Source: Gammaproteobacteria bacterium (lineage in GTDB: Bacteria > Pseudomonadota > Gammaproteobacteria > Pseudomonadales > Cellvibrionaceae). From it: DNA of 38,188 nucleotides. A program made the position numbers and the translations under genes. Shown in pieces: positions 1,884 through 34,453 of the stretch. The stretch covers positions 1 to 38,188 of the forward strand of contig JANYIO010000204.1 of NCBI GenBank assembly GCA_025362015.1, in the 5' to 3' direction. How positions within the stretch are numbered: the stretch's first letter is position 1; every line of letters begins with the position of its first letter. A model generated the notes under the pieces. It worked only from the letters and a program-made list of their open reading frames with translations. It was not told the origin of the DNA and searched no databases.

Positions 1884-1900
1884 TTTACTTCTTCCTGTCA

Positions 1901-3172
1901 CTAGCTTGCGGAGCACGCATTAATATATTGATTTAAAACATTGGCAACGCCGTCGATAAGAATTTCGGTTGGCTTATTGACGAGACGACCATCGCGAATC
2001 GCTGCATATTGCACGGGCAAATATTGACTGAGCAGTGTGAGCGGCACAGGTTCGCGCTCAAGATTGGACAACATAATCGCCTGTGCTTTTTGGATAGCCG
2101 GGTGCGGCCAGTAGTAGCGAATGCGGTCGCTCAAACTGAATTGCTTATCGAAATCCTGCCGCACTTCATCACAGTAATATTTTTTCCAATAATTGGGCTC
2201 TGCTGCCATCACTGCAAGCACAATATTTTTAAAATTCGAGCTGCGTTTATCGAGCCATTCAGTTTCAATATCCGCGAGTGCCCATAAAGTTTCGCGCAGC
2301 GCAAAAGTCACACCGGGGCCTACTTTTAAGATGGCAAAATGATCGCCGACAAGAGATTTTAAATTCGCCGGCGTTTGGTAATCCGTTGAATGGGCTTCAT
2401 AAACCAGCGTTGGTTCTGATTCAATAAATTGACTCAGCTCAATCGCTTTTGCGGGACGATAATCAATAACTTTATGATGATCAAATTCAACACCCGGTTG
2501 CACAACTAAACCAACAACGCGCGACCATACACTACCCAGGCCAGCAGCCATAAATGCAATGCGATGCGCTTTAATTGTTGCGGCAGCAGCAACTGGAGTT
2601 GTCACACTTAACTCCTGTAAATCTTCGTGTGCCCCGCCGGGCACGGGCACTTCAGTACCGACGATATACACCGGCGCTTCACCCCCAACTTTTTGCCAGG
2701 CCGCTTCGGCTACGGCACACAAACGTGCAGCGCGTGACGCAACAACTTCATCAGGCAAAGGTACTGAATCATCTTTGCATGACATTGAACAATCGAGATG
2801 AATTTTGCGGAAACCTGCGCTGACATATTGTTCGATTAACACATCTGATTTTGCCATCGCCTCTTCTGCAATTTCGCCTTGCCAGCAATTGGGACCAAGG
2901 TGATCACCACCGAGTAATAATTGATTGAGTGGAAAGCCAACTGTCTCAGCAATATCTACCACGAACTGGCGAAACAAATCCGGCGTCATACCTGTGTAGC
3001 CGCCGAATTGGTTTACTTGATTGGAGGTAGCTTCAATCAGGATCGGAATATCTTTCCCCAACCCCACACGCAGTGCAGCTTCGATAACAATGGGATGCGC
3101 TGAGCAAACCGAATAAATGCCGATGGGTTGTCCGGCTTTATGTTTTTGCACTACGTCGAGAATAGCTTTCAT
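1901..3172 (-). CDS. kbaZ: KbaZ/GatZ family D-tagatose-1,6-bisphosphate aldolase subunit
   Basis: 423 residues starting MKAILDVVQKHKAGQPIGIY, the hallmark opening of the GatZ/KbaZ family, with the conserved GGDHLGPNCWQ and HLDCSMSC segments. The family is described as the non-catalytic stabilising subunit of class II tagatose-bisphosphate aldolase; some members in GalNAc loci have been proposed to act in tagatose-6-phosphate phosphorylation. No kbaY/gatY catalytic partner is visible here. The start at 3172 has a TTGGAG ribosome site 8 bases upstream; the longer frame to 3211 lacks one. With AgaS it marks a GalNAc/galactosamine catabolic route. Confidence 0.9.
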   Translation of the reverse strand: MKAILDVVQKHKAGQPIGIYSVCSAHPIVIEAALRVGLGKDIPILIEATSNQVNQFGGYTGMTPDLFRQFVVDIAETVGFPLNQLLLGGDHLGPNCWQGEIAEEAMAKSDVLIEQYVSAGFRKIHLDCSMSCKDDSVPLPDEVVASRAARLCAVAEAAWQKVGGEAPVYIVGTEVPVPGGAHEDLQELSVTTPVAAAATIKAHRIAFMAAGLGSVWSRVVGLVVQPGVEFDHHKVIDYRPAKAIELSQFIESEPTLVYEAHSTDYQTPANLKSLVGDHFAILKVGPGVTFALRETLWALADIETEWLDKRSSNFKNIVLAVMAAEPNYWKKYYCDEVRQDFDKQFSLSDRIRYYWPHPAIQKAQAIMLSNLEREPVPLTLLSQYLPVQYAAIRDGRLVNKPTEILIDGVANVLNQYINACSAS

Positions 3173-3223
3173 GTAAAAAACTCCAAATAAATTTAGCGAG
3201 CGATTGATCAATGGGCAGACGCT

Positions 3224-4138
3224 TTAACGAATAGGCGCTAAAGGAACAGAATTAGGTTCTTCCGGTTGCAATGCGAGTAACAGCGCCGCGCAGAGCGAAA
3301 GTGCGATGCCCACCAGCTTGAAACCGGACGGCATTGAACCGGCAATCATCAAAGCAATAAGCGTCGTCAACAAAGGCGCGCCCGCATTCACCATGGGAGA
3401 CACCACCAACGCTTTGCCTTTACGGAATGCGTACACCAGCAAAAGTGCGCCGATGGAATTTAAAATTTGCGTTATCGCAGCGAGATACGGGCCATCGAAA
3501 TGTGTATTGATCGGCTGCGAGAAATCAGTCATCAAAAGTGCAACAGGAATTGTTAACAAGCCGCCGATCATCATGTAAAAGAAAATACTTTCTGCATCCA
3601 TAGTCGCGTTGGCAAGCTTGATAAAATAGGCCTGAATTCCCCACGCCAGCAGAACACCGAAGGCGAGTACAAACCATAAACCGTAGGCTACTGAATCCGC
3701 GCCCGGCGAAGCGCCGCCCGGAGAATAGTCAAACAACGGCAAAGCGCAGAGCGCGAGCAAAATTCCCAACACACCGAATTTACCGGTGCGCTCTTTCAGC
3801 AAGAAAAAGGAGAGCACTATAGTGATTGCGGGTGACATGGAAATGATCGGGAAGATCAAATAAGTCGGGCCTTGTTTAACCGCGAAGAACAACACAAGCT
3901 GTCCACCCGCTCCGAGCAAACCAATGATCAATCCTAAAGTGATTGAGCGTAAATCGTGTTTGAGTTTCCAGTTCGCGCGATGCATGGCGAAGATCGCTGG
4001 CGGAATCATGGTGAGCGCCCAGACCACATAAACTAAGGTTTCCGGAAAGCCATGTTGCGTAGGCAATCCGGCGAACGCGCCCCAAACTCCCCAGAGCAAC
4101 ATGCTTGATAACGCAAACACTAACCAGCCTGATTTCAT
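3224..4138 (-). CDS. EamA/DMT-type permease, probable sugar transporter
   Basis: 304 residues, almost entirely hydrophobic, with about ten predicted membrane helices in two five-helix halves, the drug/metabolite transporter (EamA or GRP-like) pattern. The second half ends in a run of small hydrophobic residues followed by a short polar tail. Substrate cannot be read from sequence. Its place between the glycosidase gene and kbaZ (51 bases upstream of kbaZ) suggests inner-membrane uptake of the sugar released by the GH27 enzyme, a job done by other permease families in known GalNAc loci. This assignment is inferential. Confidence 0.75.
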   Translation of the reverse strand: MKSGWLVFALSSMLLWGVWGAFAGLPTQHGFPETLVYVVWALTMIPPAIFAMHRANWKLKHDLRSITLGLIIGLLGAGGQLVLFFAVKQGPTYLIFPIISMSPAITIVLSFFLLKERTGKFGVLGILLALCALPLFDYSPGGASPGADSVAYGLWFVLAFGVLLAWGIQAYFIKLANATMDAESIFFYMMIGGLLTIPVALLMTDFSQPINTHFDGPYLAAITQILNSIGALLLVYAFRKGKALVVSPMVNAGAPLLTTLIALMIAGSMPSGFKLVGIALSLCAALLLALQPEEPNSVPLAPIR

Positions 4139-4189
4139 TAGGTTCTTCTCTTGTCGATCTTCGGGTGACTACTTACTATTTTGTGTTTT

Positions 4190-5467
4190 TTACTTAGCAT
4201 CTTTCACTTCATACACACGTATTACTTTGGTTTCGTGGCTGATCACTTCGGCGGTGTACGGAATGTCGTAAGTGCCGAGATCAGCGTGCTGCCACAAGTC
4301 ACGAATGCTGTATTTACTCCAGGGTAAATGTAGATCTTTGCGCAAACTCACTGTCATATCCGCTGTCGCGCTGCCGCGATTTAGCAAGGCGACCGCCCAG
4401 CTCCCATCGCTCAATTCTTTGGCGAAAATTTCCAAACCATTCACGCTGCTAATACGAGTTGCGGGCCTGCCAAGTGCATCCTGATTCAACGCAATCACTT
4501 CTTTATTGGTGAGAGTTTCTTTGGTGTAAGAATCCATGCTGCGAACATCTGTCCCCGTCAGCAAGGGGGAATCCATCATCGCCCACAAGCTGAAATGGGT
4601 ACGATATTCGACGTTGGATGCACCTGCGCCGACGAGATCTTTGCTGCGTTTACCGGCGAGGCCGACGACCATCATGTCGTAGTCATTCCAGTGGCCGGGG
4701 CCTGCGTATTGCTCAAGGCCGACACCGCGATCGAGCATGTCCAGGATGTCGAAGTAGTAGCCTTCGCGATTGCCGGGATAGTCAAAGTCGTCCGACAAAT
4801 CCTGCCCGATGCGCCAATGGTTGATGCCTAAATCCGCTGCCCATTCCCAAATATTGCCCCAGCCGCAGTGGCACGCGTGAAGCACAATGCCACGCTTTTG
4901 CGACATCAAGGCTTTAGACATATCGCCGAAGATGGTTTTCAACACAGGCACCGGTGCATCTTTGTGCGAGCAGCAGCTGTCGTATTTAAGGTGTTCAATA
5001 CCCCAGCTTGCGAACATGGCTGCGTCCTGCTTTTCGTGACCTTCGCTACCGGTGTAACCCGCACAAGTCGTTTGGCCGGGGCCGGAATAAATCCCTAATT
5101 TCAAACCTTTGCTGTGGGCGTAATCGCTTAAATATTTGATGCCGCGCGGGAATTTAACCGGATCAAACTCCAACGGATATTTGTTGCGCGCGCCTTTGTA
5201 ACGCTGCCAGCCATCGTCGAGATTCACGTAAGTGTAACCCGCATCGCGCATGCCGCTGCTGACGAAAGCATCGATGGTTTCAATCATCAACTGCTCGTTA
5301 ATGTGTTCGGCAAAGTTGTTCCAGCTGCTCCAACCCATAGGCGGTGTAAGTGCTAAACCGTTGCTGATTTTCGGCTTTTTCGGAGCATCCGCAGCCATCG
5401 CACTGTTTACGCCAAGCGCTGGCAAAATCATCATTACGAGCAGAGCGATCAGATTTTTCCTATTCAT
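4190..5467 (-). CDS. Secreted GH27 glycosidase, likely alpha-N-acetylgalactosaminidase (or alpha-galactosidase)
   Basis: 425 residues. A Sec signal peptide (residues 1-25, ending AMA) indicates export. The GH27 barrel starts at LTPPMGWSSWN (40-50). The nucleophile is Asp163 in LKYDSC and the acid/base Asp223 in HWRIGQD. Family members release terminal alpha-galactose or alpha-GalNAc with retention of configuration. At the position recognising the sugar 2-substituent, alpha-galactosidases have Glu (CEWG or CEWP); here it is Gly202 (CGWG), which leaves room for an N-acetyl group, as the small Ser does in human alpha-NAGAL. Together with agaS and kbaZ downstream this favours GalNAc. The C-terminal part (about 335-425) is the usual beta-sandwich. 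Confidence 0.9.
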   Translation of the reverse strand: MNRKNLIALLVMMILPALGVNSAMAADAPKKPKISNGLALTPPMGWSSWNNFAEHINEQLMIETIDAFVSSGMRDAGYTYVNLDDGWQRYKGARNKYPLEFDPVKFPRGIKYLSDYAHSKGLKLGIYSGPGQTTCAGYTGSEGHEKQDAAMFASWGIEHLKYDSCCSHKDAPVPVLKTIFGDMSKALMSQKRGIVLHACHCGWGNIWEWAADLGINHWRIGQDLSDDFDYPGNREGYYFDILDMLDRGVGLEQYAGPGHWNDYDMMVVGLAGKRSKDLVGAGASNVEYRTHFSLWAMMDSPLLTGTDVRSMDSYTKETLTNKEVIALNQDALGRPATRISSVNGLEIFAKELSDGSWAVALLNRGSATADMTVSLRKDLHLPWSKYSIRDLWQHADLGTYDIPYTAEVISHETKVIRVYEVKDAK

Positions 5468-5483
5468 AAACTCGCCTCTAAAA

Positions 5484-5531
5484 AATTACACCTAAAAAAG
5501 ATTGCACCTAAAAAAAATTGCATCTAAAAAT
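5484..5531 (-). repeat. Three A/T-rich direct repeats in the GH27 leader
   Basis: Three imperfect copies of an attgcacctaaaaaa unit, about 16-17 bases each, lie in the 75-base gap between the receptor stop and the GH27 start. Read on the coding (minus) strand each unit is T-rich and the two downstream-most copies carry AGGTG, a Shine-Dalgarno-like core. The true ribosome site (AGAGGCGAG) just before the GH27 ATG resembles a fourth, diverged unit. This looks like local slippage duplication of a ribosome-site segment. Confidence 0.6.
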
Positions 5532-5542
5532 AAAATGAATAA

Positions 5543-8323
5543 TTAAAATTTCATGCTCACGCCAGCAGAAACCGAACGACCCCAGGTTTCAAATCCATAC
5601 GCGGCATCACTGCGGCCAAGGTTGGAACGGCTGATCGCATCGCTCAGATTTTTGCCTTCGATAAAAATATCCACACCGCCATCGAAGGAGTAAGTCGCCG
5701 ATGCGGTGACCCACAACACCGGATCAACCTTGTCCGACAGACCCGCCACCGCATTATTGGTTTGGGTGAATTTGCTGGTGTAATCAAACGCAATTTGCGC
5801 GTTCAAACCATGCGCTTCATAAAGCAGAGCGATGGAGGACGCAGTTGGTGCCACACCTTCCAACTGACCGGTATATTTACCGGCGGAATAGGCTTTGGTA
5901 TTGGTTTTTGTGAACTTCGCATTCACACCAAAGCCGTTATCAAAGAAATGCTGCAGGCCAATTTCGAGACCGAATACCTTAGCTTTGTCGCCATTAATCG
6001 GACGCACCACTGTGTACAAATAACCCGGCACGCCAATATCCACATGCTCGTCAGTTTGGCTGGTGATGAAGTTTTTGATTTGCTTCGCGAACACCGCACC
6101 AGTCAAGGCCGATTTGGGCGCGTAGTACCATTCAAGGGAAATATCCTGTTGCAAGGCCGTTGCCGGCTTTAGGTTTGGGTCACCGGCAATGGTGATTAAA
6201 TAAGTACGATCCAGCGTGTTATCGGTACGTGTCGGGGCGAGCTTATCCAACGATGGCCGCGCCATGACTTCAGCGATTGCGGCACGGGCCACAAGAGTTG
6301 AATCTAACCAATAACCCAAGTTCACTGACGGCAACACTTTGGTGTAAGAACCATCCTGCGAAACGGGAACAGCGGGGCTGTAAGTAACCGTTGGGCTTGA
6401 GGTTGGAATATCCGGGGTTGGGTCATTAATCGCAATAATTTGGTTGATTGCGCTTTTCGATGTGGTCTCGGTATACACAACGCGCGCACCAAGATTGCCA
6501 AACCATTGCTCGCCCGCCAACTCAGCTTCAAGGTAGGCAGTCGTGGTTTTTTCGGAAACATTGTAAGAATTAGTCGGATCAATTACCGGCAAGGTTTTGG
6601 ACGCATCGTAAACCTCGCCAGTAGGAATGCCATTAACGATCACTGGTTTACCGTCCAGCGCTTTCAACGAATTAAGATAGGCGGGAACATCAAACTTCAC
6701 AAAGCTCGTGGGATATTTCCCTCCTGCGTTGCGCATAAAATTCGGCAGCTTCACGGTGCCCACCACATCCGCCCGTAAGGACGCAAAAGTCGTGTCGTAC
6801 ATATTGCAGTATTGGCAGGAACCGCCGGTCACATCGTTGCCGATAGAGTCGCGGGTCTTCTCGCGGTCGGTATCGTTCAGGCCGAAATTGAATGATGTCA
6901 CCATGGAATCATGGAACGCATATTTGCCGTCAATCGCACCGCCGGTCACCGTATCCTTGATATCAGAGCCGGACAAACCAACGTAATGCAAACCATAATC
7001 GCTATTACCCAAATCACCGTGAGCGAGAGATGTCGCGAGATCGCGGCCATCTTCGAGCGTAACGTGAATACTCGGCAACGCATCCTTGTTTGCGCTGTAA
7101 TAACCCGTGTTATGACCCGCAATACCCGACACCACGAAGGTATCTTTCCCGCCGGAATTACGCTCGGAGGTTGAGCGGTAAACATCACCGATTAACTTCA
7201 AATCATCAGTCGCATCCCACTCGCCCTTCCAGCCAAACTGCGCGGTATCCACTACGCGATGGTTGGTAATGGTGGCAATTTCAGGCGTTAAATCTTTTAT
7301 CGTCATGCTGGTGACGAGGTGATTTTTTACCACCACATCAGACCAGCGACCTTCCGCGCTTTCCACGTAATAAGCTTGGCTATAGCCGACCTGCGGGGAG
7401 TTCAGACGGGTGAAAAGTGCATCCACTGTCATAGTGAAAGTGTCCGACGGCGCCCATTGATACACACCGGACACTGCATAACGCTTTTTCTTTTCGAACA
7501 CTGAGCCGAAAGCAACGCAGCAGGAACCCAGCAGATTTTCTTCGTCTGCGGACAGCTGGCCATTAGCGTTCACATCGTAACTACCGGGGGAATCGGGGTT
7601 ATAAGTTTGGTAATTGAGGGAATCAGTACGCACGGTTTTATCGGAATAGACGGCGCCGAGCAAAACGCCCATGGTTTCATCGGCGAAGGTGTTGCTCACC
7701 ACGCCCGACAATTTGTAGCCGCTCTTTTCCGAGAGATCGTTGTACTCGCCTTCGCCGCGCAAAGATGCGTGAAAACCCGCCGCATCGAGTGGACGGGCAG
7801 ATCTTAAATTCACCGAGCCGCCGATACTGCCTTCAATTTGCGATGCCTGCGCAGACTTCATTACGTCTGCACCCGAGATCACTTCTGACGGCAATACATC
7901 AAACGCGAAATCGCGGCCATCGCCATCGGTCGCGAGGATACGGTTATTCAAAGTCACTATGTTGTAGCCCGAACCCAAGCCGCGCACACTAATATATTGG
8001 CCTTCGCCACCTTTAGTGCGCGTAACAGCAATGCCAGTGATGTGGGTGAGAGAGTCCGCAACGTTATCGTCGGGGAAGCGCCCGAGTTCGGTCGCAGAAA
8101 TGGAATCTTGCACAATGGTCGCATCGCGCTTCATATCCCGCGATTTCGCAAGCGCAGCACGCGTGCCGGTGACAATAACAGTTTCCGCTTCGCCACTTGC
8201 GGCAGGCTGGTCAGGCGCGACCTGCGCATAAGTAACGCCGCTCAGCCCACCACTAATCAGTGCGCATTTAACCGCAATGGCGAGCAAACTTCGCTTAAAA
8301 CTGTTCTCACGTATGGCTCTCAT
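5543..8323 (-). CDS. TonB-dependent outer membrane receptor (Xanthomonas/Caulobacter carbohydrate type)
   Basis: 926 residues from the ATG at 8323. This ATG is preferred over a GTG at 8329 because GAGGG sits 7 bases before it. A long signal peptide ends near TYAQ. The plug domain (about 45-170) has the TonB-box-like ETVIVTGTR and the conserved VRGLGSGYNIVTLNNR. The remaining beta-barrel ends in aromatic Phe (SAGVSMKF), the outer membrane insertion signal. Two cysteine pairs (GSCCV and CQYC) probably form disulfides in external loops. It is the first gene of the sugar locus and probably imports the oligosaccharide trimmed by the GH27 enzyme. The ligand is inferred from neighbours only. Confidence 0.92.
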   Translation of the reverse strand: MRAIRENSFKRSLLAIAVKCALISGGLSGVTYAQVAPDQPAASGEAETVIVTGTRAALAKSRDMKRDATIVQDSISATELGRFPDDNVADSLTHITGIAVTRTKGGEGQYISVRGLGSGYNIVTLNNRILATDGDGRDFAFDVLPSEVISGADVMKSAQASQIEGSIGGSVNLRSARPLDAAGFHASLRGEGEYNDLSEKSGYKLSGVVSNTFADETMGVLLGAVYSDKTVRTDSLNYQTYNPDSPGSYDVNANGQLSADEENLLGSCCVAFGSVFEKKKRYAVSGVYQWAPSDTFTMTVDALFTRLNSPQVGYSQAYYVESAEGRWSDVVVKNHLVTSMTIKDLTPEIATITNHRVVDTAQFGWKGEWDATDDLKLIGDVYRSTSERNSGGKDTFVVSGIAGHNTGYYSANKDALPSIHVTLEDGRDLATSLAHGDLGNSDYGLHYVGLSGSDIKDTVTGGAIDGKYAFHDSMVTSFNFGLNDTDREKTRDSIGNDVTGGSCQYCNMYDTTFASLRADVVGTVKLPNFMRNAGGKYPTSFVKFDVPAYLNSLKALDGKPVIVNGIPTGEVYDASKTLPVIDPTNSYNVSEKTTTAYLEAELAGEQWFGNLGARVVYTETTSKSAINQIIAINDPTPDIPTSSPTVTYSPAVPVSQDGSYTKVLPSVNLGYWLDSTLVARAAIAEVMARPSLDKLAPTRTDNTLDRTYLITIAGDPNLKPATALQQDISLEWYYAPKSALTGAVFAKQIKNFITSQTDEHVDIGVPGYLYTVVRPINGDKAKVFGLEIGLQHFFDNGFGVNAKFTKTNTKAYSAGKYTGQLEGVAPTASSIALLYEAHGLNAQIAFDYTSKFTQTNNAVAGLSDKVDPVLWVTASATYSFDGGVDIFIEGKNLSDAISRSNLGRSDAAYGFETWGRSVSAGVSMKF

Positions 8324-8361
8324 TGTCACGCCCTCTTTTGTATTTTTTGAACTGATTAGGC

Positions 8362-25543: not shown

Positions 25544-26845
25544 ATGAATATTGCAGTAAAAGAAAAACCATTTTTAATCCTGAAGGCTGAACATCAAGCA
25601 AATAATGACAGCAGACGAGTTATCTTTAACAGAACAAACGAGTTTCTATCTGTTCAAAAAAACCTGCAGATCAACGATATAGAAATAATAAAATTACCTA
25701 AAATCTTACTGGTGTTTCAAGCAATTTTCTTACAGATTTTTGCCATAAGTTTACTGCTAACATTTTCCAGTTTTGTAAGTGCGAATGAGTCTCCCTACAT
25801 TGAACTTGAACAAAAACCGCAATGGTTACAATTAGCTTCATTGATTGAAGAAGAAAAGCGCTCTGTGAATTTTTCTGAGCATAGAAAAATTCACAGTAGC
25901 TGGGCGTTTGCATTTGATAATGATTTGTTGGCACCCGGTCATCGTGATAGGGATTATACCTACGGCATGAACCTAACCTATTCCGGTATTAACGCAAGTG
26001 ACGCGGGTATCTCGTTAAAAGCACCTCTTGCAATAATTGACAGATGGCTCGGGCTTCAACAGCTAACAAACAATGTGCAAAATAATTACAGCGTAGAAAC
26101 TGGTTTGTATGGATTTACTCCTAAAAATATTACCCAAGAACAAATTAATGAAAGCGATAGACCTTATGCGAGCATTATCTATTTATCGAGCTCACATGAA
26201 CAACTTAATGCAGACAATAACATCGCATGGAAAACTACACTGACTATTGGTGTGCTTGGGCTTGGTATTGCTGGCGAATTACAAAATGTAGCGCACGAAC
26301 AAGTATCGGGGAAAGAAGCGCGTGGTTGGAATCATCAAATAAGTAACGGCGGCGAATTAACCGGCCGTTACGTTATTGCGCGGCAACACTATTTAGAAAG
26401 TTTTTCTGATTCATTAGAAATGAAAAGTACACTGCAAGCCTCAGTGGGTTATTTAACTGAAACTAGTTGGAGCTTGAGTTTACGCAGCGGAAAAATTATC
26501 AGCCCCTGGGTAACCTTTAATCCCGATTTAATTACCTATGGTGAAAAATCCACCTACAGTAATAATACATCCTCATCTAACGAGCATTATTTTTGGGCGG
26601 GATTTACTATCAAAGCACGCTTCTACAACGCATTTTTACAGGGGCAGGCACGCGATACTGATTTTTCTTACTCTTACGATTCTTTAAGACCCATGATTCT
26701 GGAGGGTTGGGCAGGCTACACTTATGCATTCAAACAAGGCTATCGAATGAGTTATGTTTTGCGCGCACAAACATCTGAAATTAAACAGGGCGATGGCAAT
26801 CGAAACCTGGTGTGGGGTGGATTAATTTTTGCTAAAACAATCTAA
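25544..26845 (+). CDS. LpxR-like lipid A deacylase family protein (DUF2219)
   Basis: 433 residues. The barrel starts at SWAFAFDNDLLAP with N126-D127, then DRDYTYG (136-141), SDRPYAS and ELQNVAHEQ, whose His251 matches the catalytic His of Salmonella LpxR. LpxR removes the 3'-acyloxyacyl chain of lipid A at the outer membrane. An unusual 53-residue hydrophilic stretch precedes the signal-like hydrophobic segment (54-79, ending FVSANE); no other ATG exists in between and AGGTG precedes the chosen ATG, so it may be a real extended signal or an upstream start. Probably under the adjacent TetR regulator. Confidence 0.82.
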   Translation: MNIAVKEKPFLILKAEHQANNDSRRVIFNRTNEFLSVQKNLQINDIEIIKLPKILLVFQAIFLQIFAISLLLTFSSFVSANESPYIELEQKPQWLQLASLIEEEKRSVNFSEHRKIHSSWAFAFDNDLLAPGHRDRDYTYGMNLTYSGINASDAGISLKAPLAIIDRWLGLQQLTNNVQNNYSVETGLYGFTPKNITQEQINESDRPYASIIYLSSSHEQLNADNNIAWKTTLTIGVLGLGIAGELQNVAHEQVSGKEARGWNHQISNGGELTGRYVIARQHYLESFSDSLEMKSTLQASVGYLTETSWSLSLRSGKIISPWVTFNPDLITYGEKSTYSNNTSSSNEHYFWAGFTIKARFYNAFLQGQARDTDFSYSYDSLRPMILEGWAGYTYAFKQGYRMSYVLRAQTSEIKQGDGNRNLVWGGLIFAKTI

Positions 26846-26856
26846 AAATTAAATAT

Positions 26857-26907
26857 CCTGCGTAACTAGTATCAACACGCTACGCAGGCATCAACACATC
26901 ACGCAGG
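26857..26907. repeat. Hairpin and 19-base near-duplication between convergent genes
   Basis: CCTGCGTA (26857-26864) pairs with TACGCAGG (26881-26888) across a 16-base loop and may act as a two-way terminator. The segment atcaacacgctacgcagg (26871-26888) is repeated with 15 of 18 matches at 26890-26907; the second copy includes the chrR stop codon. Confidence 0.5.
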
Positions 26908-27618
26908 TTTAATCGATAAAAAAGGATTAATAAAGTGCCCTATAAACCCCGTCACCTTCACTGGCGCGGCGACCACCGACAAACATAAACAATCCTGATT
27001 GAGGGTAGCCGTCGGACGATGTATCTCACCAGGAGTGCGAACTAGAAAATCTCCTCTACTATAAATACCTTGCTCATCCGAAAAACTCCCTTGCAATACT
27101 AACGTTATTTCCAAACCACGATGGTCATGCTCCACAATTTTCCCACCGCTGCTGATACGCTGAAATGCAACCTCATATTCATTTTGGCCGGCCGTTAAAC
27201 GCGCCGTTTTTAAAGCGCTGGATACCCGTTGCCATTTTAACTTTCCATTAATAGGTAATAGTTTTTCAATAATTTTTGGTAACCGATTTAATAGCGGATC
27301 ATGACTATAGGCATTATTCAGCCCCTCAGCCGCCGCTATTTTTGTAGCCTGTTCGCCTTCTGTCTTTTCCACTGCTGCTTTTTCTGTTGTTGTCTTTTGA
27401 TGAATGCGCTGCATAAGATTTTCAAAACTGTTTGGCGCGCAGGTTTCAGCAGCGCTAGTATTTAATATCACGCCGCCAATTTTGTTTAATGCAGATACTT
27501 TTTGACGGCAATGAGGACATAATTGAATATGTGCGCACACACTTAAACTCAATGCCCAGGCAAGGCTACCGCTGGAATATTCTGCCAGTAAATTTTCATC
27601 CGGATGATGATTAATCAT
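26899..27618 (-). CDS. chrR: ChrR-type zinc/cupin anti-sigma factor
   Basis: 239 residues. The N-terminal anti-sigma zinc motif has H5, H30, C34 and C37, with the same spacing as H6, H31, C35 and C38 of Rhodobacter ChrR. The C-terminal cupin carries H164, H166, E170 and H200, again matching the ChrR metal ligands (HxHxxxE and +30 His). All eight metal ligands are therefore kept. ChrR holds its ECF sigma factor inactive until singlet oxygen or organic peroxide triggers release. It overlaps the sigma gene by 4 bases. A linker with about 60 extra polar residues separates the two domains. Confidence 0.93.
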   Translation of the reverse strand: MINHHPDENLLAEYSSGSLAWALSLSVCAHIQLCPHCRQKVSALNKIGGVILNTSAAETCAPNSFENLMQRIHQKTTTEKAAVEKTEGEQATKIAAAEGLNNAYSHDPLLNRLPKIIEKLLPINGKLKWQRVSSALKTARLTAGQNEYEVAFQRISSGGKIVEHDHRGLEITLVLQGSFSDEQGIYSRGDFLVRTPGEIHRPTATLNQDCLCLSVVAAPVKVTGFIGHFINPFLSIKPA

Positions 27619-28250
27619 TGCCCATCTCCTGTTGTATCACTACGTTTCTTGCTAGCCACATCGATTAATACTTGCATCTTTTTCAACGCAATTCTCACTC
27701 GTGATTTCACGGTGCCCAAGGGCAGCCCCGTTTCAGTAGAAATTTGTTGATGGGTTTTACCCTGCATATAAACCTGAGTTAGCACGACTCGCTGTTCAGT
27801 GGGAAGTTGTTTAAATGCATTTTGAATAATTATTTCATTGCTGGCCTGTTGCAGGTATACATAAGCCTGATCATCGGCCGCTTCATCCCATATATCCTCA
27901 ATTTCAATAACGCCACTATCAGTAATCGTGCGCTTATTACGACGCATTACATCGATGCGGCAATTACGCATTACAGTGTAAATCCAGGTAGATGCCGCAG
28001 CTTTAGTCGCATCATAAGAAGGAGCCTTCTGCCACACTTTAAATAAAACCTCTTGCACAATTTCATCTGCTGCATCAGCGGGAAAGCTAGCATTTACATT
28101 CCCCAAACAAAAGCCTTTTATCAAGGGAGCAAAATGCGCAAACAATTGCGCAAATGCATTTTCGTCGCGCTCTTGGCCCACTCGCTCCAGCAAACGGCTC
28201 CAGGTGTCCTCACGCGCCCCTGAGGGCACCGCTGAAATAATATTAGCCAT
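27615..28250 (-). CDS. rpoE: ECF sigma factor of the ChrR-controlled (ECF11) type
   Basis: 211 residues with sigma region 2 (about 30-95; ADEIVQEVLFKVWQKA and STWIYTVMRNCRID) and region 4 (about 145-195; TEQRVVLTQVYMQGKTHQQI, LPLGTVKSRVRIAL). It is followed without a gap by chrR, and its own promoter lies in the palindrome at 28343-28357. It most likely directs transcription of itself and of the divergent lipid operon. Confidence 0.93.
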   Translation of the reverse strand: MANIISAVPSGAREDTWSRLLERVGQERDENAFAQLFAHFAPLIKGFCLGNVNASFPADAADEIVQEVLFKVWQKAPSYDATKAAASTWIYTVMRNCRIDVMRRNKRTITDSGVIEIEDIWDEAADDQAYVYLQQASNEIIIQNAFKQLPTEQRVVLTQVYMQGKTHQQISTETGLPLGTVKSRVRIALKKMQVLIDVASKKRSDTTGDGQ

Positions 28251-28320: not shown

Positions 28321-28348
28321 TTTACGACGCGAGCCGGAGTTTGGATCA
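28321..28348 (-). promoter_or_regulatory. ECF11-type promoter of the sigma/anti-sigma genes
   Basis: On the minus strand TGATCC (28343-28348) is followed by exactly 17 bases and GTAAA. This matches the published pattern for the Rhodobacter sphaeroides RpoE/ChrR system as I recall it (TGATCC, 18 bases, TA-rich -10). The element is about 75 bases upstream of the sigma start and implies self-activation. Confidence 0.75.
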
Positions 28349-28351
28349 GTG

Positions 28352-28380
28352 TGATCCATTTTAAGCTACACAACGTAAAT
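28352..28380 (+). promoter_or_regulatory. ECF11-type promoter of the lipid operon
   Basis: TGATCC (28352-28357) is followed by 17 bases and GTAAAT (28375-28380), the same spacing and -10 as the opposite promoter. The two -35 elements sit back to back in the palindrome ggatcagtgtgatcc. Transcript start would fall about 30 bases before the first operon gene. Confidence 0.78.
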
Positions 28381-28414: not shown

Positions 28415-28864
28415 ATGGATACCATAGCTGCAAAGTCATTATTCAACATCGAAGACTTTAAAATGCTCTACAAAAACTTTGACTCTACTATGCTGAATAA
28501 ACTATCAACACTCTATAGTACTGAGATTGAATTTAAAGATCCCATTCATGAACTCCAGGGCTTAGCGGCCTTGAAGTGTTATTTTGCCGGCTTTTTCAAT
28601 CGCGAAATGACTTGTCAGTTTGTATTTACTAATCAATTGGTCAACAGCGGACAAGTCTTCCTGCAATGGCAAATGCATTATAGCCATCCCCGTTTACAGG
28701 CAGGTAAAGCCTTGCTACTCAATGGCGGCACACTGATTAAGTTTAACAGCCACATTTATTATCACGAAGATTTTTATGATATGGGTGCCATGCTATACCA
28801 ACATATACCGGTGCTTGGGTATGTAGTTAAAAAAATTAACTCACGCTTGGTGACCGCAAAATGA
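28415..28864 (+). CDS. SnoaL/NTF2-like protein heading the lipid operon
   Basis: 149 residues. The fold is suggested by the ending pattern ...GGTLIKFNSHIYYHEDFYDMGAMLYQ, conserved in SnoaL-like proteins linked to ChrR-regulated loci. It carries no signal peptide, so it is cytoplasmic. Such proteins bind hydrophobic or fatty-acyl-like ligands, fitting the lipid-modifying genes that follow, but catalysis is unknown. Its stop overlaps the start of the next gene (ATGA). Confidence 0.75.
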   Translation: MDTIAAKSLFNIEDFKMLYKNFDSTMLNKLSTLYSTEIEFKDPIHELQGLAALKCYFAGFFNREMTCQFVFTNQLVNSGQVFLQWQMHYSHPRLQAGKALLLNGGTLIKFNSHIYYHEDFYDMGAMLYQHIPVLGYVVKKINSRLVTAK

Positions 28865-29631
28865 ATAAAATTATAGGTCGCTGCATTTGGGTCACAGGTG
28901 CCAGTTCCGGACTGGGCAGGGCTCTGGTTCAACAACTTGCGGAAGCAGGTAACTATGTCATCGCCAGCGCAAGATCACACACGGCGCTGGTTGATTTAGC
29001 ATTGCAATATCCCGGAAAAATAAAAGTCTTCCCGTTGGATGTAAGTCATCAGCTGGATATGGAAAAAGCCGCTGCGCAATTGCGCGAATTTACGGATTAC
29101 CTTGACATGGTTATTTGTGCTGCAGGTATTTGTGAATACGAAGATAACTTAAGCTTTGACCCAACTATGTACGAACGCACCATGGATGTAAATTTTCTTG
29201 GCGTAGTGCGAGCGCTTAACCTTGCCCTACCCTTACTGAGGCGAGCACAGCAACGCGCACATTTTGTGGCGATTAGTAGCTTATCCACTTGCGTTGGATT
29301 TCCGCGGGCCGAAGCTTATGGTGCATCTAAAGCCGCACTAAATTATTTTATGCAATCATTGCGCGCCGACGCAGTAAAACTCCCACTGGATTTAACCCTC
29401 GTGCGCCCGGGTTTTATCGCCACTGAGCTGGTTAAAAACAATGACTTCTCCATGCCATTTTTAATGACTCCGGAACAAGCTAGCCTACGGGTTATTAAAG
29501 GTATCAACTCGGGCAAATTTTTAGTGGACTTCCCCCGCCGACTCAGTTGGCCCCTCGGTATTGCGTCTTTCTTTTTTAATACATGGTGTAAATATTTTGC
29601 ACCCAAGCTCACCCGCCTACATAAATTATAA
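28861..29631 (+). CDS. Short-chain dehydrogenase/reductase of the lipid operon
   Basis: 256 residues, classical SDR. The cofactor-binding loop is TGASSGLG (near residue 13) and the catalytic pair is in YGASK. A hydrophobic C-terminal stretch (RLSWPLGIASFFFNTWCKYF) may associate with membrane. It likely oxidises or reduces a lipid intermediate; its substrate is not readable. It overlaps the SnoaL-like gene by 4 bases. Confidence 0.88.
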   Translation: MNKIIGRCIWVTGASSGLGRALVQQLAEAGNYVIASARSHTALVDLALQYPGKIKVFPLDVSHQLDMEKAAAQLREFTDYLDMVICAAGICEYEDNLSFDPTMYERTMDVNFLGVVRALNLALPLLRRAQQRAHFVAISSLSTCVGFPRAEAYGASKAALNYFMQSLRADAVKLPLDLTLVRPGFIATELVKNNDFSMPFLMTPEQASLRVIKGINSGKFLVDFPRRLSWPLGIASFFFNTWCKYFAPKLTRLHKL

Positions 29632-29642
29632 AAGGATATAGC

Positions 29643-30902
29643 GTGAAAATTGCAATTATCGGTAGTGGTATTTCGGGTTTAACTGCGGCTTATATGCTTA
29701 ATAAACAACATGACATTTGTTTATATGAAGCAGCTGATCGTTTGGGTGGCCACACCGCCACAAAAAAAATTACAGTTAACGATCAGGATTATGCAATAGA
29801 TACAGGCTTTATTGTTTTTAACGATTGGACTTATCCCAACTTTATTAAGCTCATGAATGAATTAGGCGTTGAATCCCAAGAGGCAACTATGGGCTTTAGC
29901 GTATTCAATCCCACCGACGGTTTCGAATATGCGGGTACAAATCTCGCCACTTTGTTTGCGCAAAAGCGCAATTTATTTTCTCTTAAGCACTGGCGTATGC
30001 TTAGCGATATTCTACGCTTCAATAAAGAAGCACTGCAGGATTTAGACGCAGATAACTTACAAAGCAACGAAACAGTCGGTGAATATCTATTGCGGAAAAA
30101 ATACTCCATCGCATTCAGAGAACGCTACTTAATTCCAATGGGTTCTGCAATCTGGTCTGCTACTCAGGGTGCTATGCTGGACTTTCCATTAGAATTTTTT
30201 GTGCGATTTTTCAAAAATCACGGCTTATTAAATGTGGTTAATCGCCCGCAATGGCGAGTTATTAAAGGCGGCTCAAAAAATTATATTGAACCTTTAATTG
30301 CCAGCTTTAAACATAAAATAAAATTGAACTCTCCGGTTGAATCTATAATTCGTAACAAAGAAGGAAAACCCGGCGTTAGTGTTACCGCCAAAGGTTTCAC
30401 CAAACACTATGACCAAGTCGTACTCGCCTGTCACTCTGACCAAGCTTTAGCGCTTTTGAGTGACCCAACTCCGAATGAGCTAGAGATATTGCAAAAGATC
30501 AAATATCAAAATAATTCCGTAATTTTACATACCGACGCGCGACTCTTACCGCGAAAAAAAGCGACTCGCTCAAGCTGGAATTATCTTCTGCAGACCAACA
30601 AGCAAGACAGCTTACCCATTCTTACCTATTCAATGAATATTTTGCAGAGCATTGAGAGCGATACAGAATTTTGTGTAACCCTCAACGCCGAAGATTACAT
30701 AGACCCACAAAAAATACTCGGCCAATACAATTATGCCCATCCCGTATTTAATCAAGAAGCAATTCAAGCTCAGCAACAATGGCACACCATTAATGGTGTT
30801 AATAATACCTGGTTTTGTGGAGCTTATTGGTTTAACGGCTTCCACGAGGATGGAGTAAATAGCGCATTACGTGTTGCTAAAGCCTTAGGAGTGAATGTGT
30901 AA
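29643..30902 (+). CDS. FAD-dependent amine-oxidase-like protein of the lipid operon
   Basis: 419 residues from a GTG start with AAAGGA 7 bases upstream. An N-terminal dinucleotide loop IGSGISGLTAAY (6-17) and E-x-x-D-R-L-G-G-H segment define the flavin amine-oxidase/phytoene-desaturase fold, and a C-terminal CGAYWFNGFHEDGV closes the flavin site. In such operons it is annotated as flavin amine oxidase or cyclopropane fatty-acid synthesis protein. It probably oxidises an unsaturated or methylated acyl chain in concert with the Cfa-like enzyme (inference). Confidence 0.88.
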   Translation: MKIAIIGSGISGLTAAYMLNKQHDICLYEAADRLGGHTATKKITVNDQDYAIDTGFIVFNDWTYPNFIKLMNELGVESQEATMGFSVFNPTDGFEYAGTNLATLFAQKRNLFSLKHWRMLSDILRFNKEALQDLDADNLQSNETVGEYLLRKKYSIAFRERYLIPMGSAIWSATQGAMLDFPLEFFVRFFKNHGLLNVVNRPQWRVIKGGSKNYIEPLIASFKHKIKLNSPVESIIRNKEGKPGVSVTAKGFTKHYDQVVLACHSDQALALLSDPTPNELEILQKIKYQNNSVILHTDARLLPRKKATRSSWNYLLQTNKQDSLPILTYSMNILQSIESDTEFCVTLNAEDYIDPQKILGQYNYAHPVFNQEAIQAQQQWHTINGVNNTWFCGAYWFNGFHEDGVNSALRVAKALGVNV

Positions 30903-31687
30903 TGTTTGATGAATTTGCCAGCGCAATTTATCAAGGCACAGTACGCCACCGTCGTTTTTCACCCAAAAAGCATGATTTTTCCTATCAGGTTTTTATGATG
31001 TATCTGGACATTCAAGAATTAAATAAAGTTTTATCGCTCAGCCGTTTTTGGTCAGTATCAACATGGGCACCCGCACGCTTTAAACGCAGTGATTTTCATA
31101 TCAATAAAAAGCACACAAATAACGGCAACGCTAAAGATCTACCTACTATTGATGATGCAGTCCGAGATACAGTAGAACAGGAAACTGGCGCGCGCCCAAC
31201 AGGACCCATACGCATGCTGGTTAATTTACGCTATTGGGGTTACAGCATTAATCCTCTAAGCACCTATTATTGTTTTGATGATGCCGGGGAGAAAATAGTT
31301 GCTATAGTGGCGGAAGTACATAATACGCCCTGGAATGAACGCCATGCCTATATTTTAACAGGCGAAGATTTTGACAGAAAACAAACATGTACTTTCAAAA
31401 AAGAATTTCATGTTTCACCTTTTAATCCGCTCGATATGAATTATCACTGGCAATCAACCATGCCCGCCAAAACACTTTGCATTCATTTAGAAAATTGGCA
31501 ACAAGATACAAAAATCATGGATGCAACAATGACCTTAACTCGAACACCCATCAATGAAAAAAACATGAACGCTATTTTAATCCATTTTCCCTGGATGACC
31601 GTAAAAGTAGTTATGGCAATTTATTGGCAAGCACTCAAATTATGGTTAATTGGTATACCCACATTTAATCACTCAAAGAAAATATAG
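30902..31687 (+). CDS. DUF1365 family protein of the lipid operon
   Basis: 261 residues, starting by TAATG overlap with the flavin gene. DUF1365 features present are YQGTVRHRRFSPKKHDFSYQ (early), NPLSTYYCFD and EVHNTPWNERHAYIL, with FHVSPFNPLDMNYHW. No catalytic role is established for the family, but it is found repeatedly between the flavin and Cfa genes. Hydrophobic stretches near the C-terminus (about 225-250) suggest membrane contact. Confidence 0.88.
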   Translation: MFDEFASAIYQGTVRHRRFSPKKHDFSYQVFMMYLDIQELNKVLSLSRFWSVSTWAPARFKRSDFHINKKHTNNGNAKDLPTIDDAVRDTVEQETGARPTGPIRMLVNLRYWGYSINPLSTYYCFDDAGEKIVAIVAEVHNTPWNERHAYILTGEDFDRKQTCTFKKEFHVSPFNPLDMNYHWQSTMPAKTLCIHLENWQQDTKIMDATMTLTRTPINEKNMNAILIHFPWMTVKVVMAIYWQALKLWLIGIPTFNHSKKI

Positions 31688-31704
31688 CTCATGCAATCAG
31701 GTAA

Positions 31705-32982
31705 ATGCAGATGAAATCTATAAGTATCATTGATAAAAAAACATCTTCCGTATTAAAACAACATTGGCTTGATAGTTTTGCACGCAATGCATTGCTAAAA
31801 CTATTGAATAAAATTGAGTTAGGTCACCTCACAATTGAAGATCAAGGTGAAATTTTTAGCTTTGGCGAGGCCAAAGAAAAGGCTACCCTCATTGCCCATA
31901 TCTCGGTAAACCATGAGTCCTTCTATCGTCACATTTTATTTGGTGGCAGCATAGGTGCTGGCGAGGCCTACATGTTTAAAATATGGTGGTCGCCTGATTT
32001 GGTGCAAGTTATTCGCGTTATGGCATTGAATATGAATGTACTGCAACAGTTAGATTCCAAATGGAGCAGTATGTTTAATTTTTTCTGCCGTGTAGCACAT
32101 AAACTTCGCCCTAATACAATCAACAAAGCCCGCGAGAATATTGCCGCCCACTATGACCTTGGCAATAATTTTTTCGCCTTATTTTTAGATAAAACAATGC
32201 TTTATTCTGCAGCAATATACCCGCATGAAAATGCCAGCCTGGAGCAAGCATCGCTGCATAAAATGGCCCATATTTGTAAACGCTTACAACTGAGTGAAGA
32301 TGACCATCTGTTGGAAATTGGTACTGGCTGGGGAGGTATGGCAATTTATGCCACGCAACAAACAGGCTGCCGCGTTACTAGTGTTACCATTTCGCAAGAG
32401 CAATTTAATTACGCGACCGCTTGGGTAAAACGTGAAGGTCTTGAAGACAGAGTTAATATCTTGTTACAGGATTATCGGCTTATTGAAGGAAAATTTGATA
32501 AGTTGCTTTCTATAGAAATGATCGAAGCCGTAGGCCATGAGTTCTATCGTGAATATTTTACTAAGTGCTCCGGTTTACTAAAAGCTGATGGCTTAATGTT
32601 AATACAGGCTATTACTATACAAGATCAACGCTTTGAATATGCTCACAAAAATACTGATTTTATTCAGCAGTATATTTTTCCAGGTGGCTGCCTACCGTCA
32701 AATGTCATTATTGCAAAACATATTAATGAAGACACTGACATGCAAATTATTGGGCTAGAAGATATTACGCTCGATTATGCGAAAACGTTAGAGCACTGGC
32801 GCTCTGCATTTTTTAACAATATAGCAAAGGTAAAAGATCAGGGCTTCGATGAAGTATTTATTCACATGTGGGATTTCTATTTGTGCTATTGCGAAGGAAG
32901 CTTTAGAGAGCGCGCCATAAGTACAGCGCAATTCTTATTTTCGAAGCCAGCAGCGCGCGTAATGCCGAATCTTTATGAGTAG
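31705..32982 (+). CDS. Cfa-like SAM-dependent fatty-acyl methyltransferase
   Basis: 425 residues. The SAM site is LLEIGTGWGGMAIYA (GxGxG) and the acyl-binding HYDLGNNFFALFLD precedes it. Compared with E. coli Cfa (my alignment, from memory), the bicarbonate-site residues corresponding to Cys139 and His266 are Ala (LYSAAIY) and Gln (LIQAIT), while Glu239 (IEAVG) and Tyr317 (LDYAKT) remain. This suggests an altered reaction, such as methylation or furan-type chemistry. The start could be 31705 or the Met at 31711; AGG is spaced better for the second. It overlaps the next gene by 8 bases. Confidence 0.88.
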   Translation: MQMKSISIIDKKTSSVLKQHWLDSFARNALLKLLNKIELGHLTIEDQGEIFSFGEAKEKATLIAHISVNHESFYRHILFGGSIGAGEAYMFKIWWSPDLVQVIRVMALNMNVLQQLDSKWSSMFNFFCRVAHKLRPNTINKARENIAAHYDLGNNFFALFLDKTMLYSAAIYPHENASLEQASLHKMAHICKRLQLSEDDHLLEIGTGWGGMAIYATQQTGCRVTSVTISQEQFNYATAWVKREGLEDRVNILLQDYRLIEGKFDKLLSIEMIEAVGHEFYREYFTKCSGLLKADGLMLIQAITIQDQRFEYAHKNTDFIQQYIFPGGCLPSNVIIAKHINEDTDMQIIGLEDITLDYAKTLEHWRSAFFNNIAKVKDQGFDEVFIHMWDFYLCYCEGSFRERAISTAQFLFSKPAARVMPNLYE

Positions 32983-33544
32983 CAATATAAGCTTAAAAGT
33001 AATCAATATTTTTAACGCTTTAGGCTTTCAAATTGGTTGGTTTATTTGTGTATTAAAAGGGAATTTTCTTGGTTTAGCCTTTGCGATTATATTTACTATT
33101 ACCCAATTATTTCTGCTTTATCTCTACTCAGATAAATTTCTACTAAAGAAGGAAATTTTCTGGTTGATGGTTATTATTATAATAGGCTTCTGTATAGAAA
33201 CACTATTTTTCAGCTCAGGTATTTTATACGAATATATCCATCCCGCAATGCCTATGCATTTTGTCGCTCCGCCATTGTGGATCATTTATTTGTGGCTCCT
33301 GTTTGCTACTGCACTGCGAACAAGCCTGTCATTTCTATTTAATAAACATTGGATTGTCTATTTAGTCACGGCAATAGCAGCACCCTCTAGTTATTTTGCG
33401 GGCGATCATTTAAATACAACCGTTAATATCAATGAGCCTATAGCGATTAGCTTAGTCATTATCGGCTTGGCTTGGGTCTTTACTTTATGGATTATTAAAA
33501 ATTTGAAACACTACTACTTCGAGGATATCTTCCATGGTTACTAG
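32975..33544 (+). CDS. DUF2878 family membrane protein of the lipid operon
   Basis: 189 residues with about six hydrophobic spans, typical of the DUF2878 family found next to Cfa-like and DUF1365 genes. The start overlaps the cfa-like stop (ATGAGTAG). No biochemical function is known; a role in presenting or moving the lipid substrate in the inner membrane is a guess. Confidence 0.8.
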   Translation: MSSNISLKVINIFNALGFQIGWFICVLKGNFLGLAFAIIFTITQLFLLYLYSDKFLLKKEIFWLMVIIIIGFCIETLFFSSGILYEYIHPAMPMHFVAPPLWIIYLWLLFATALRTSLSFLFNKHWIVYLVTAIAAPSSYFAGDHLNTTVNINEPIAISLVIIGLAWVFTLWIIKNLKHYYFEDIFHGY

Positions 33545-34280
33545 CATGGCACTAGCCATTGCGTTATGGCCTACACAAGTTACGCAATATTGCCCACCAT
33601 CAAACGATACACTTATTGTTGGCGTAGCATTTAACAACCAAAATGAATTTTTATATTGTGAATTGTTTAGTCAAATTTCTGAAAAAAAATTTCACTCAGA
33701 TTATATTCGCGAATCCAACACCTTTGCAACAAAGGACTTGGATTTCTCTAATAGCTTATTTTTACCCGATGTAACGCAACTAGATTTTCGCTCAGGAGAG
33801 TTACGCGAAGCAACCATCAACAAGCATCAAGTGAATCTCAAGTACCGCGAAGAAAAAAACAGAAAAGATGAACAGGTAAACTTAGCCCGCAATGAAATGG
33901 ATGCATTAGATGCAGGTTTTAATGATTTTATTCGTGCGCACTGGGATGAGTTAATTACAGGAAATACACTAACGATTAATTTTGGCTCTATAGCACATCA
34001 AAAAACATTACCGCTCCGCATCAGTCAACGAAGTTCAGAAAAATGCGGAAATATTCTTAACAAAGAATGTAGCCCAGCGCCATTTTGTTTTATGATTGAA
34101 ATTGATAATATGTTTTTACGTTTGTTGGTCGGGAATATTAAATTAACCTACGATAAACAACATCGGCTACAGGAGTTCAACGGAACAGTAAATATTCAGA
34201 ATAACAAACAGAAATCACAAAATGCAATTATCCATTATTATTACATCAACGATTACCTTCCAGTTCCAAACATAAAATAG
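33534..34280 (+). CDS. Last lipid-operon gene, unknown function
   Basis: 248 residues, overlapping DUF2878 by 11 bases. A short hydrophobic start (MALAIALWPTQV) may be a signal or anchor. The rest is soluble with a conserved-looking patch DALDAGFNDFIRAHWDEL and alternating strands near the end. The terminator follows at once. I do not recognise the family, but the gene clearly belongs to the operon by its overlap. Confidence 0.7.
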   Translation: MVTSMALAIALWPTQVTQYCPPSNDTLIVGVAFNNQNEFLYCELFSQISEKKFHSDYIRESNTFATKDLDFSNSLFLPDVTQLDFRSGELREATINKHQVNLKYREEKNRKDEQVNLARNEMDALDAGFNDFIRAHWDELITGNTLTINFGSIAHQKTLPLRISQRSSEKCGNILNKECSPAPFCFMIEIDNMFLRLLVGNIKLTYDKQHRLQEFNGTVNIQNNKQKSQNAIIHYYYINDYLPVPNIK

Positions 34281-34286
34281 CGACAT

Positions 34287-34316
34287 AAAAAAGCCCACTC
34301 ACTAGTGGGCTTTTTT
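34287..34316 (+). terminator. Rho-independent terminator ending the lipid operon
   Basis: A perfect 13-base stem (aaaaaagcccact / agtgggctttttt) with a 4-base loop and a T tract, 7 bases after the final stop codon. It sets the right boundary of the operon. Confidence 0.92.
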
Positions 34317-34453
34317 ATTGATACATTCTACAAACTTAAACTTTCACTTTCCTTCTTATAAAACATAAACTCAACAACCTATTTGAGTAGACTGACCATT
34401 GGCCAACAATATGATCAGCTAACAAGCCGCCGATCACAAAACCATCAGCCCGT

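Follow-up and report, generated by a model that had tools for sequence, protein, structure and literature searches.

The locus studied here raises the question of whether a compact row of lipid genes and the sigma factor pair divergent from it form one system, and what such a system would make. It lies in a stretch of 38,188 nucleotides (contig JANYIO010000204.1 of assembly GCA_025362015.1, a gammaproteobacterium of the Cellvibrionaceae), referred to as the window throughout. Positions 28415-34280 hold seven co-directional genes on the plus strand, and divergent from them stand the genes for an extracytoplasmic function (ECF) sigma factor and a ChrR-family anti-sigma factor. Judging from its genes, their order, the promoters, their conservation and an active-site pattern, we consider it likely (probability roughly 0.8) that switch and pathway together form a self-contained stress module at this locus, controlled by ChrR and making antioxidant furan fatty acids. 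Only the last gene of the operon, labelled TERM here (33534-34280), is an undescribed part; the rest is a well-preserved representative of the known ChrR-linked furan lipid set.

A seven-gene operon containing a probable furan fatty acid triad

From 5' to 3', the operon encodes a SnoaL_2/NTF2-like protein (28415-28864; PF12680, 36.9 bits, cut-off 27), a short-chain dehydrogenase/reductase (SDR; 28861-29631; PF00106 adh_short, 124.8 bits), a flavin adenine dinucleotide (FAD)-dependent, amine-oxidase-like and UfaD-like oxidase with a GTG start (29643-30902; PF01593 Amino_oxidase, 87.4 bits), a UfaO-like DUF1365 protein, a putative furan-forming oxygenase (30902-31687; PF07103, 267.8 bits), a UfaM-like, Cfa-family S-adenosylmethionine (SAM) methyltransferase (31705-32982; PF02353 CMAS, 277.5 bits, and the ligand columns discussed below), a DUF2878 protein with six predicted membrane helices (32975-33544; PF11086, 85.9 bits, cut-off 27, and an AlphaFold2 model) and TERM, a beta-rich, probably secreted member of an unnamed conserved family as judged from its relatives and an AlphaFold2 model. 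Neighbouring genes overlap by 1-11 bases or are separated by gaps of 11 or 17 bases (in order: overlap 4, gap 11, overlap 1, gap 17, overlap 8, overlap 11). Behind TERM, an intrinsic terminator hairpin on the plus strand (34285-34318) comprises 15 pairs and reaches -19.9 kcal/mol (z = -6.7), a stability that none of 200 shuffles equalled. This hairpin was not listed by a consensus terminator scan, we think because its T run forms part of the stem. The initial annotation had described seven linked genes ending in a strong terminator, and this is borne out by the reading frame coordinates, the hairpin energy and the shuffles.

The FAD oxidase, DUF1365 and Cfa-family genes stand together in the window, with the same content and order as ufaD-ufaO-ufaM. 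In R. palustris these are the consecutive genes RPA2571-2570-2569, which have been proven by deletion and expression to be necessary and sufficient for furan fatty acid formation; UfaM is a SAM methylase acting on cis-vaccenate, UfaD a FAD enzyme and UfaO the carrier of DUF1365 (PMC7380195). A Halomonas ufaM expressed in E. coli gave 11-methyloctadec-12-enoate, a furan precursor (PMC12089945), and Marinomonas communis produces furan acids (review PMC3528120); of the TERM-bearing loci described below, 14 are from Marinomonas (none from M. communis), and every one of these has all nine genes. Because the triad is complete, and because of the Halomonas UfaM product and the furan acids of M. communis, a furan product is the one we favour. 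With its counterparts in the equivalent triads, the window FAD oxidase shares 52% identity (Aeromonas) and 42% identity (Azospirillum), and among solved structures the amine oxidase LkcE (6f7l) is its best relative; a PDB sequence search returned no convincing solved relative of the DUF1365 protein.

Predicted paired promoters between sigma factor and lipid operon

The sigma factor gene (27615-28250, minus strand; Sigma70_r2 and r4_2 in Pfam) is of the ECF11 type, with R. sphaeroides RpoE (2q1z_A, E 1.5e-36) as its top PDB match. The adjoining gene (26899-27618, minus strand; TIGR02451, 162.4 bits, cut-off 124.5) encodes a ChrR-family zinc anti-sigma factor with a cupin C-domain. When aligned with R. 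sphaeroides ChrR (2z2s/2q1z), it keeps the histidine, the HxxxCxxC motif, the cupin H-x-H...E and the further histidine, which we take to be the zinc and cupin ligands, and both the zinc-binding N-domain and the C-domain ligands of a ChrR system are present.

A motif scan revealed two predicted ECF11-type promoters (TGATCC-N16-CGTA), missed by the initial annotation, which stand back to back with one facing each operon. The plus-strand site (28352-28377) lies 37 bases 5' of the SnoaL ATG, and the minus-strand site of the sigma/chrR operon (28323-28348) lies 72 bases 5' of the sigma ATG. The exact motif occurs at five sites in the 4.5-Mb genome compared to three for a reversed control, and only the two window sites stand shortly before a complete reading frame: for two of the other three, no frame as long as 80 codons begins in the next 250 bases, whereas the remaining one is itself within an open frame, a cut-off frame starting 155 bases further at the stretch end. 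A looser motif yields 31 genome sites versus 4 for the reversed control, so that further targets of the sigma factor are possible. In Shewanella, rpoE2-chrR is preceded by TGATCC and CGTATT with a mapped start (PMC4336711), and the motif reported for V. cholerae is TGATC-N18-CGTAT (PMC5241685).

The motif TGATC[CTA]-N15-18-GTA was then sought in 57 intergenic regions, those of the window and of 56 of the 80 named TERM loci, which were widened into the genes because starts had been set mechanically and in which near-duplicate species were kept. Of these regions, 54 have a copy directed at the sigma gene and 36 one directed at the lipid operon, 33 having both; over 200 block shuffles the mean was 1.4 (most 6) for the lipid direction and 0.075 (most 2) for both. 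These paired sites support the view, already put forward in the initial annotation, that the lipid genes form one operon wired to the neighbouring ECF/ChrR pair, with both operons probably read by the ECF11-type sigma factor. In Azospirillum sp. B510, Rhizobium daejeonense and Mesorhizobium terrae, a divergent ECF/anti-sigma pair likewise stands directly before the triad, the Azospirillum anti-sigma gene being annotated as a cupin protein.

Taken together, a mechanism can be proposed in which ChrR would hold the sigma factor inactive until ChrR is itself inactivated by an oxidant (e.g. singlet oxygen or an organic peroxide); once released, the sigma factor would read the two back-to-back promoters and thereby switch on the seven lipid genes as well as the operon that encodes it. 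The furan lipids would be consumed by membrane oxidants and may feed back on ChrR turnover. Our guess is that SnoaL, SDR, DUF2878 (inner membrane) and TERM (periplasm) would be accessory, TERM probably handling lipid or lipid oxidation products outside the inner membrane. With switch and pathway in one divergent locus, this would be a compact system for testing how ChrR senses oxidants. A Photo_RC profile search of the window genome found no gene, and the ChrR-linked furan lipid programme would thereby extend to an apparently non-phototrophic host.

Spread of the triad among Gammaproteobacteria

We surveyed 185 genomes, an even sample of the class, and sought ECF/ChrR genes within 9 kb of DUF1365. 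DUF1365 is present in 54 genomes, DUF2878 in 34 (33 above cut-off) and TERM in 12 (two by partial matches; 7/162 among the more complete genomes). ChrR scores above cut-off in six genomes, and any ChrR match at E 0.001 is found in 52, mostly to the cupin part alone. All six strict-ChrR genomes carry DUF1365 (p = 0.0005; 5/5 and p = 0.0017 without the window genome), on the same contig and within 6.5 kb start to start, two of the six belonging to one genus. Fetching the 53 DUF1365 loci outside the window genome yielded 52 with a DUF1365 reading frame, and 48 of these have FAD, DUF1365 and Cfa genes in this order on one strand. With such a share of ordered triads, and with the full gene set at 43 of 64 TERM loci (see below), a chance neighbourhood is rejected.

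TERM and DUF2878, the two parts proposed as undescribed

The initial annotation had counted two undescribed parts, of which the last gene, having no family, stands. DUF2878 does not, since it has been noted in an equivalent cluster of Aeromonas salmonicida (PMC10012899) and is known as VC1123 in V. cholerae (PMC12971978). Its AlphaFold2 model predicts a six-helix membrane protein (mean predicted local distance difference test, pLDDT, 91.9); two PDB sequence matches (E 0.017 and 0.094) were rejected as chance-like, and fold matches in the PDB (best E 1.6) were set aside too. In the class survey DUF2878 goes with DUF1365 (24/34 vs 30/151 genomes, p = 3e-8).

TERM has no match above cut-off in Pfam or NCBIfam; phage Mu Gam and DUF1573 were rejected as relatives, their Pfam matches (E 0.016 and 0.069) being below cut-off and each confined to one of 50 members. 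A PDB sequence search at E up to 1 gave no solved relative. Relatives of TERM occur in 42 of 57 related genomes, its own included, and at 262 loci of a named genome collection, which is a lower bound as these were found through one peptide pattern. The 80 best of the 262 loci, a choice that biases the set toward the window, come nearly all from Gammaproteobacteria (Microbulbifer, Marinomonas, Halioglobus, Cellvibrio and others, plus one Leptospirales metagenome-assembled genome), and TERM mostly stands at the operon end. Where at least 8.5 kb of upstream sequence was available (64/80), Cfa precedes TERM at 58 loci, DUF1365 at 58, DUF2878 at 57, ECF at 58 and ChrR at 56, and 43 loci of this set, chosen by TERM likeness, have all six preceding genes and the divergent ECF-ChrR pair. 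At 31 of the 71 loci with enough downstream sequence, DUF3833 directly follows TERM, which therefore does not close the row everywhere. As a truly undescribed part recurring in many Gammaproteobacteria, this family merits attention of its own.

In the genus of the window all 21 genomes have a TERM-like match, which is close (the window's own or 45-48% identity) in six. A distant copy (21-29% identity) is found in 20 of the 21, all but the window genome; among the distant copies whose neighbours were read, those at loci L043, L048 and L131 lie behind MerR, SnoaL and photolyase genes and that at L051 behind a photolyase gene. In the Cellvibrio relatives L048 (8749-11483) and L051 (8339-10674) TERM follows the photolyase without intervening lipid genes, and at L125 (8644-10693) ECF-ChrR and SnoaL genes and a TERM frame occur with no lipid enzymes between. 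The Leptospirales genome (L087, 4934-11453 and on) carries TERM, MerR, FAD, DUF1365, Cfa, a second Cfa and a gene that was judged DUF1295-like by eye, either by transfer or through a binning error.

As judged by eye, most TERM relatives start with a hydrophobic leader, in some cases with a lipobox-like pattern ending in Cys. Since the leader of the window protein is not preceded by basic residues, this protein is likely, though not sure, to be exported. The AlphaFold2 model (pLDDT 90.8, predicted template modelling score 0.87) is beta-rich, and its lowest-E Foldseek match is Brucella EipB/DUF1849 (6ntr; template modelling score, TM, 0.39-0.43). EipB, a secreted, periplasmic beta-spiral protein whose task is given as unknown and which has been likened to LolA/LolB (PMC10787603), is beta-rich as well. 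The two nevertheless differ by a root-mean-square deviation of about 10 Å at 6-8% identity and lack any sequence match, none of 50 TERM members scanned matched DUF1849, and the modelled likeness appears too weak for kinship. An axonemal chain (9fqr_Xh; E 1.5e-3, TM 0.43/0.34) was as weak a match as EipB and was set aside, as were PCNA-like matches with low E and TM 0.12-0.18 (among the top 50 of 924 matches).

Across the class TERM goes with DUF1365 (8/12 vs 46/173 genomes, p = 0.006; p = 0.014 without the window genome) and weakly with DUF2878 (5/12, p = 0.05), and an association with ChrR was not found (1/12, p = 0.34). This enrichment, the operon position and the presence of DUF2878 and Cfa upstream at 57 and 58 of the 64 loci speak against TERM being a mere passenger of the operon, e.g. 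an EipB-like envelope-integrity protein with no part in furan lipid handling. Such a passenger role is nonetheless a possibility to be taken seriously, if short of even odds: four of the 12 TERM genomes have no DUF1365, TERM persists without lipid genes at L048, L051 and L125, and the weak fold likeness to EipB in the model would fit it. A role of TERM in the operon is perhaps periplasmic lipid handling. A gene for a chalcone-isomerase-like protein (Chalcone_3) is near none of the 71 TERM loci and near 11 of the 52 class loci, none of these 11 with TERM; the latter count says little alone, as only three of the 52 have TERM. The Chalcone_3 profile was built from one sequence. The counts suggest, no more, that TERM and the chalcone-isomerase-like protein fill the same operon place. 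The more specific proposal that TERM is a new secreted beta-rich family that replaces the chalcone-isomerase-like protein and acts beyond the inner membrane on phospholipids with furan or methylated chains, or on what oxidation makes of them, is unlikely to hold in full. On this reading TERM could also carry an oxidised-lipid signal that feeds back on ChrR and so supply the link that is missing between oxidation of the membrane and release of the sigma factor. A literature search found no publication on a TERM-like protein in this operon, which for a nameless family is weak evidence of absence.

An exchangeable switch in front of the pathway

At the 52 DUF1365 loci of the survey, ECF and ChrR genes are nearby in five, MerR or photolyase genes in 15 and neither in 32, although these absence counts are upper bounds because some stretches stop at contig ends. 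The pathway is thus common across the class and its switch exchangeable. We considered whether light, rather than oxidants in general, is the real signal, with the lipid operon belonging to a light-response set for which ECF/ChrR is one of several exchangeable switches, MerR/photolyase being used elsewhere. Beyond the 15 loci, such an idea draws on the order MerR-SnoaL-photolyase-SDR-FAD-DUF1365-Cfa-DUF2878-TERM in the Cellvibrio relatives L043 and L131, on MerR-phrB before the same six genes on an Aeromonas plasmid and on V. cholerae, where 159 of the 222 genes responding to blue light are under ChrR/sigma-E and 63 under a MerR protein (PMC5241685). The single photolyase gene of the window genome, however, lies on another contig and has no TERM there. 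Light as the real signal is rather doubtful for this locus, and it would be compatible with the ChrR-switched furan module.

Active-site pattern of the Cfa-like methylase

The bicarbonate ligands of Cfa are C139, E239, H266, I268 and Y317 (PMC3132707). Numbered after E. coli K-12 Cfa, the window enzyme keeps E239, I268 and Y317 in the alignment and has Ala at C139 and Gln at H266; two of the five ligands thus differ from the canonical cyclopropane synthase set. Gln at the H266 place is shared by all 114 DUF1365-adjacent Cfa relatives, the syntenic enzymes of Aeromonas, Azospirillum, Rhizobium, Mesorhizobium and Shinella having it as well. Among six Cfa genes not adjoining DUF1365, five encode Gln, and the lone canonical-looking one keeps Cys and His. 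The exchange marks a subfamily, its product not being proven by the pattern. It offers a cheap mark for separating these methylases, several of which are currently annotated as cyclopropane synthases, from the textbook bacterial enzymes. A tree placed the operon enzymes apart from E. coli Cfa at a weak node support of 0.43 and was not relied upon. In the window genome, which is 96% complete, no second CMAS match is strong (279 bits for the operon enzyme, then 40 and 27 at a cut-off of 27), and the enzyme's identity as a housekeeping cyclopropane synthase was rejected, as its ligands differ and the next matches reach only these scores. Two Shinella plasmids (L233, 2520-3557; L220, 6423-7460) have, behind their ChrR and DUF1295 genes, another Cfa-family gene that is divergent and keeps the His; possibly it serves another lipid under the same sigma factor.

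At loci L068, L085 and L122, SnoaL, DUF1365, Cfa and TERM stand beside ECF/ChrR and profiles found no UfaD-like FAD gene; at these loci either some other source supplies the second step or a different product is made. It is improbable that the fatty acids made by the window operon are cyclopropane or solely methyl-branched ones, its FAD and DUF1365 enzymes acting on another substrate, since the three kept ligands, the three loci lacking a FAD gene and the cotton synthases, which make cyclopropane with Gln at the same place, are countered by the 114 of 114 Gln enzymes, the Cys and His of the lone canonical-looking relative, the proven furan triad (PMC7380195) and the Halomonas UfaM product (PMC12089945).

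Several points nevertheless weigh against the ChrR-switched furan module. The chemistry (11Me-12t-18:1, 11Me-10t,12t-18:2 and a furan acid as products) and the trigger (singlet oxygen) are carried over by analogy from relatives, and the sequence comparison of the triad covered syntenic alphaproteobacterial and Aeromonas relatives; the DUF1365 protein is only 31% identical to that of Azospirillum. As cotton cyclopropane synthases likewise have Gln for His266 (PMC3132707), the active-site pattern is compatible with a cyclopropane product. The strain with Halomonas ufaM also gave cyclic acids, the E. coli host having its own cfa (PMC12089945). In a chrR-minus R. sphaeroides, deletion of RSP1087, 1088 or 1089 left the fatty acids unchanged (PMC7380195), so that accessory genes may have other tasks. 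Finally, the initial annotation had held that the link would fall if the same genes were consistently found without the ECF/ChrR pair. This is partly the case, as the pair is absent within 9 kb at 47 of the 52 DUF1365 loci, and the converse holds, all strict-ChrR genomes having DUF1365.

Comparison with known systems

Among the closest known systems is the R. sphaeroides RpoE-ChrR core regulon (RSP1087-1091, RSP2144; ufaD, ufaO, ufaM), which shares with the window the ECF11 sigma/ChrR pair, FAD oxidase, DUF1365, Cfa-family methylase and SDR (PMC7380195, PMC6852236, PMC5507510). It differs in that ufaM is far from ufaD/ufaO (PMC12089945) and the host is phototrophic, and the available portions of the regulon descriptions do not mention DUF2878 or TERM. 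A core regulon of about eight genes has been described across photosynthetic and non-photosynthetic species (PMC6852236, PMC5507510).

The Aeromonas cluster NTF2-SDR-FAD-DUF1365-cfa-DUF2878 (PMC10012899; plasmid locus L229) agrees with the window in these six genes and in their arrangement; apart from the FAD oxidase at 52%, identities to the window are 49% for Cfa, 39% for DUF1365, 38% each for SDR and SnoaL and 32% over 73 residues for DUF2878. L229 differs by MerR-phrB in front and by TIGR02450, Chalcone_3 and DUF3833 genes, not TERM, behind, and the coordinates given in PMC10012899 place the ChrR gene of A. salmonicida away from the cluster. In the RpoE2-ChrR regulon of Shewanella oneidensis (SO_3374-3386), cfa belongs to an RpoE2-dependent operon with the promoter TGATCC/CGTATT, the first gene of which is induced by RpoE2 (PMC4336711). 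Unlike the window operon, to which it is likened by description, it includes phrB and is not beside the sigma gene (SO_1986). Published ChrR-linked sets of a related kind exist from Rhodobacter, Shewanella, P. syringae and Vibrio, and the cluster including DUF2878 is on record from Aeromonas. The initial annotation's lead of a membrane lipid remodelling operon was right as to the furan enzymes and the ECF/ChrR wiring; it does not describe a new kind of set.

Other genes of the window

An LpxR-family outer membrane gene (25544-26845; PF09982, 128 bits) adjoins chrR and is a second possible envelope-lipid gene; the promoter-pattern scan gave no site before it. At 705-8329 the window carries a sugar-use cluster with phosphosugar isomerase-like, GatZ/KbaZ-like, permease-like, alpha-galactosidase-like and TonB-receptor-like genes, named by eye.

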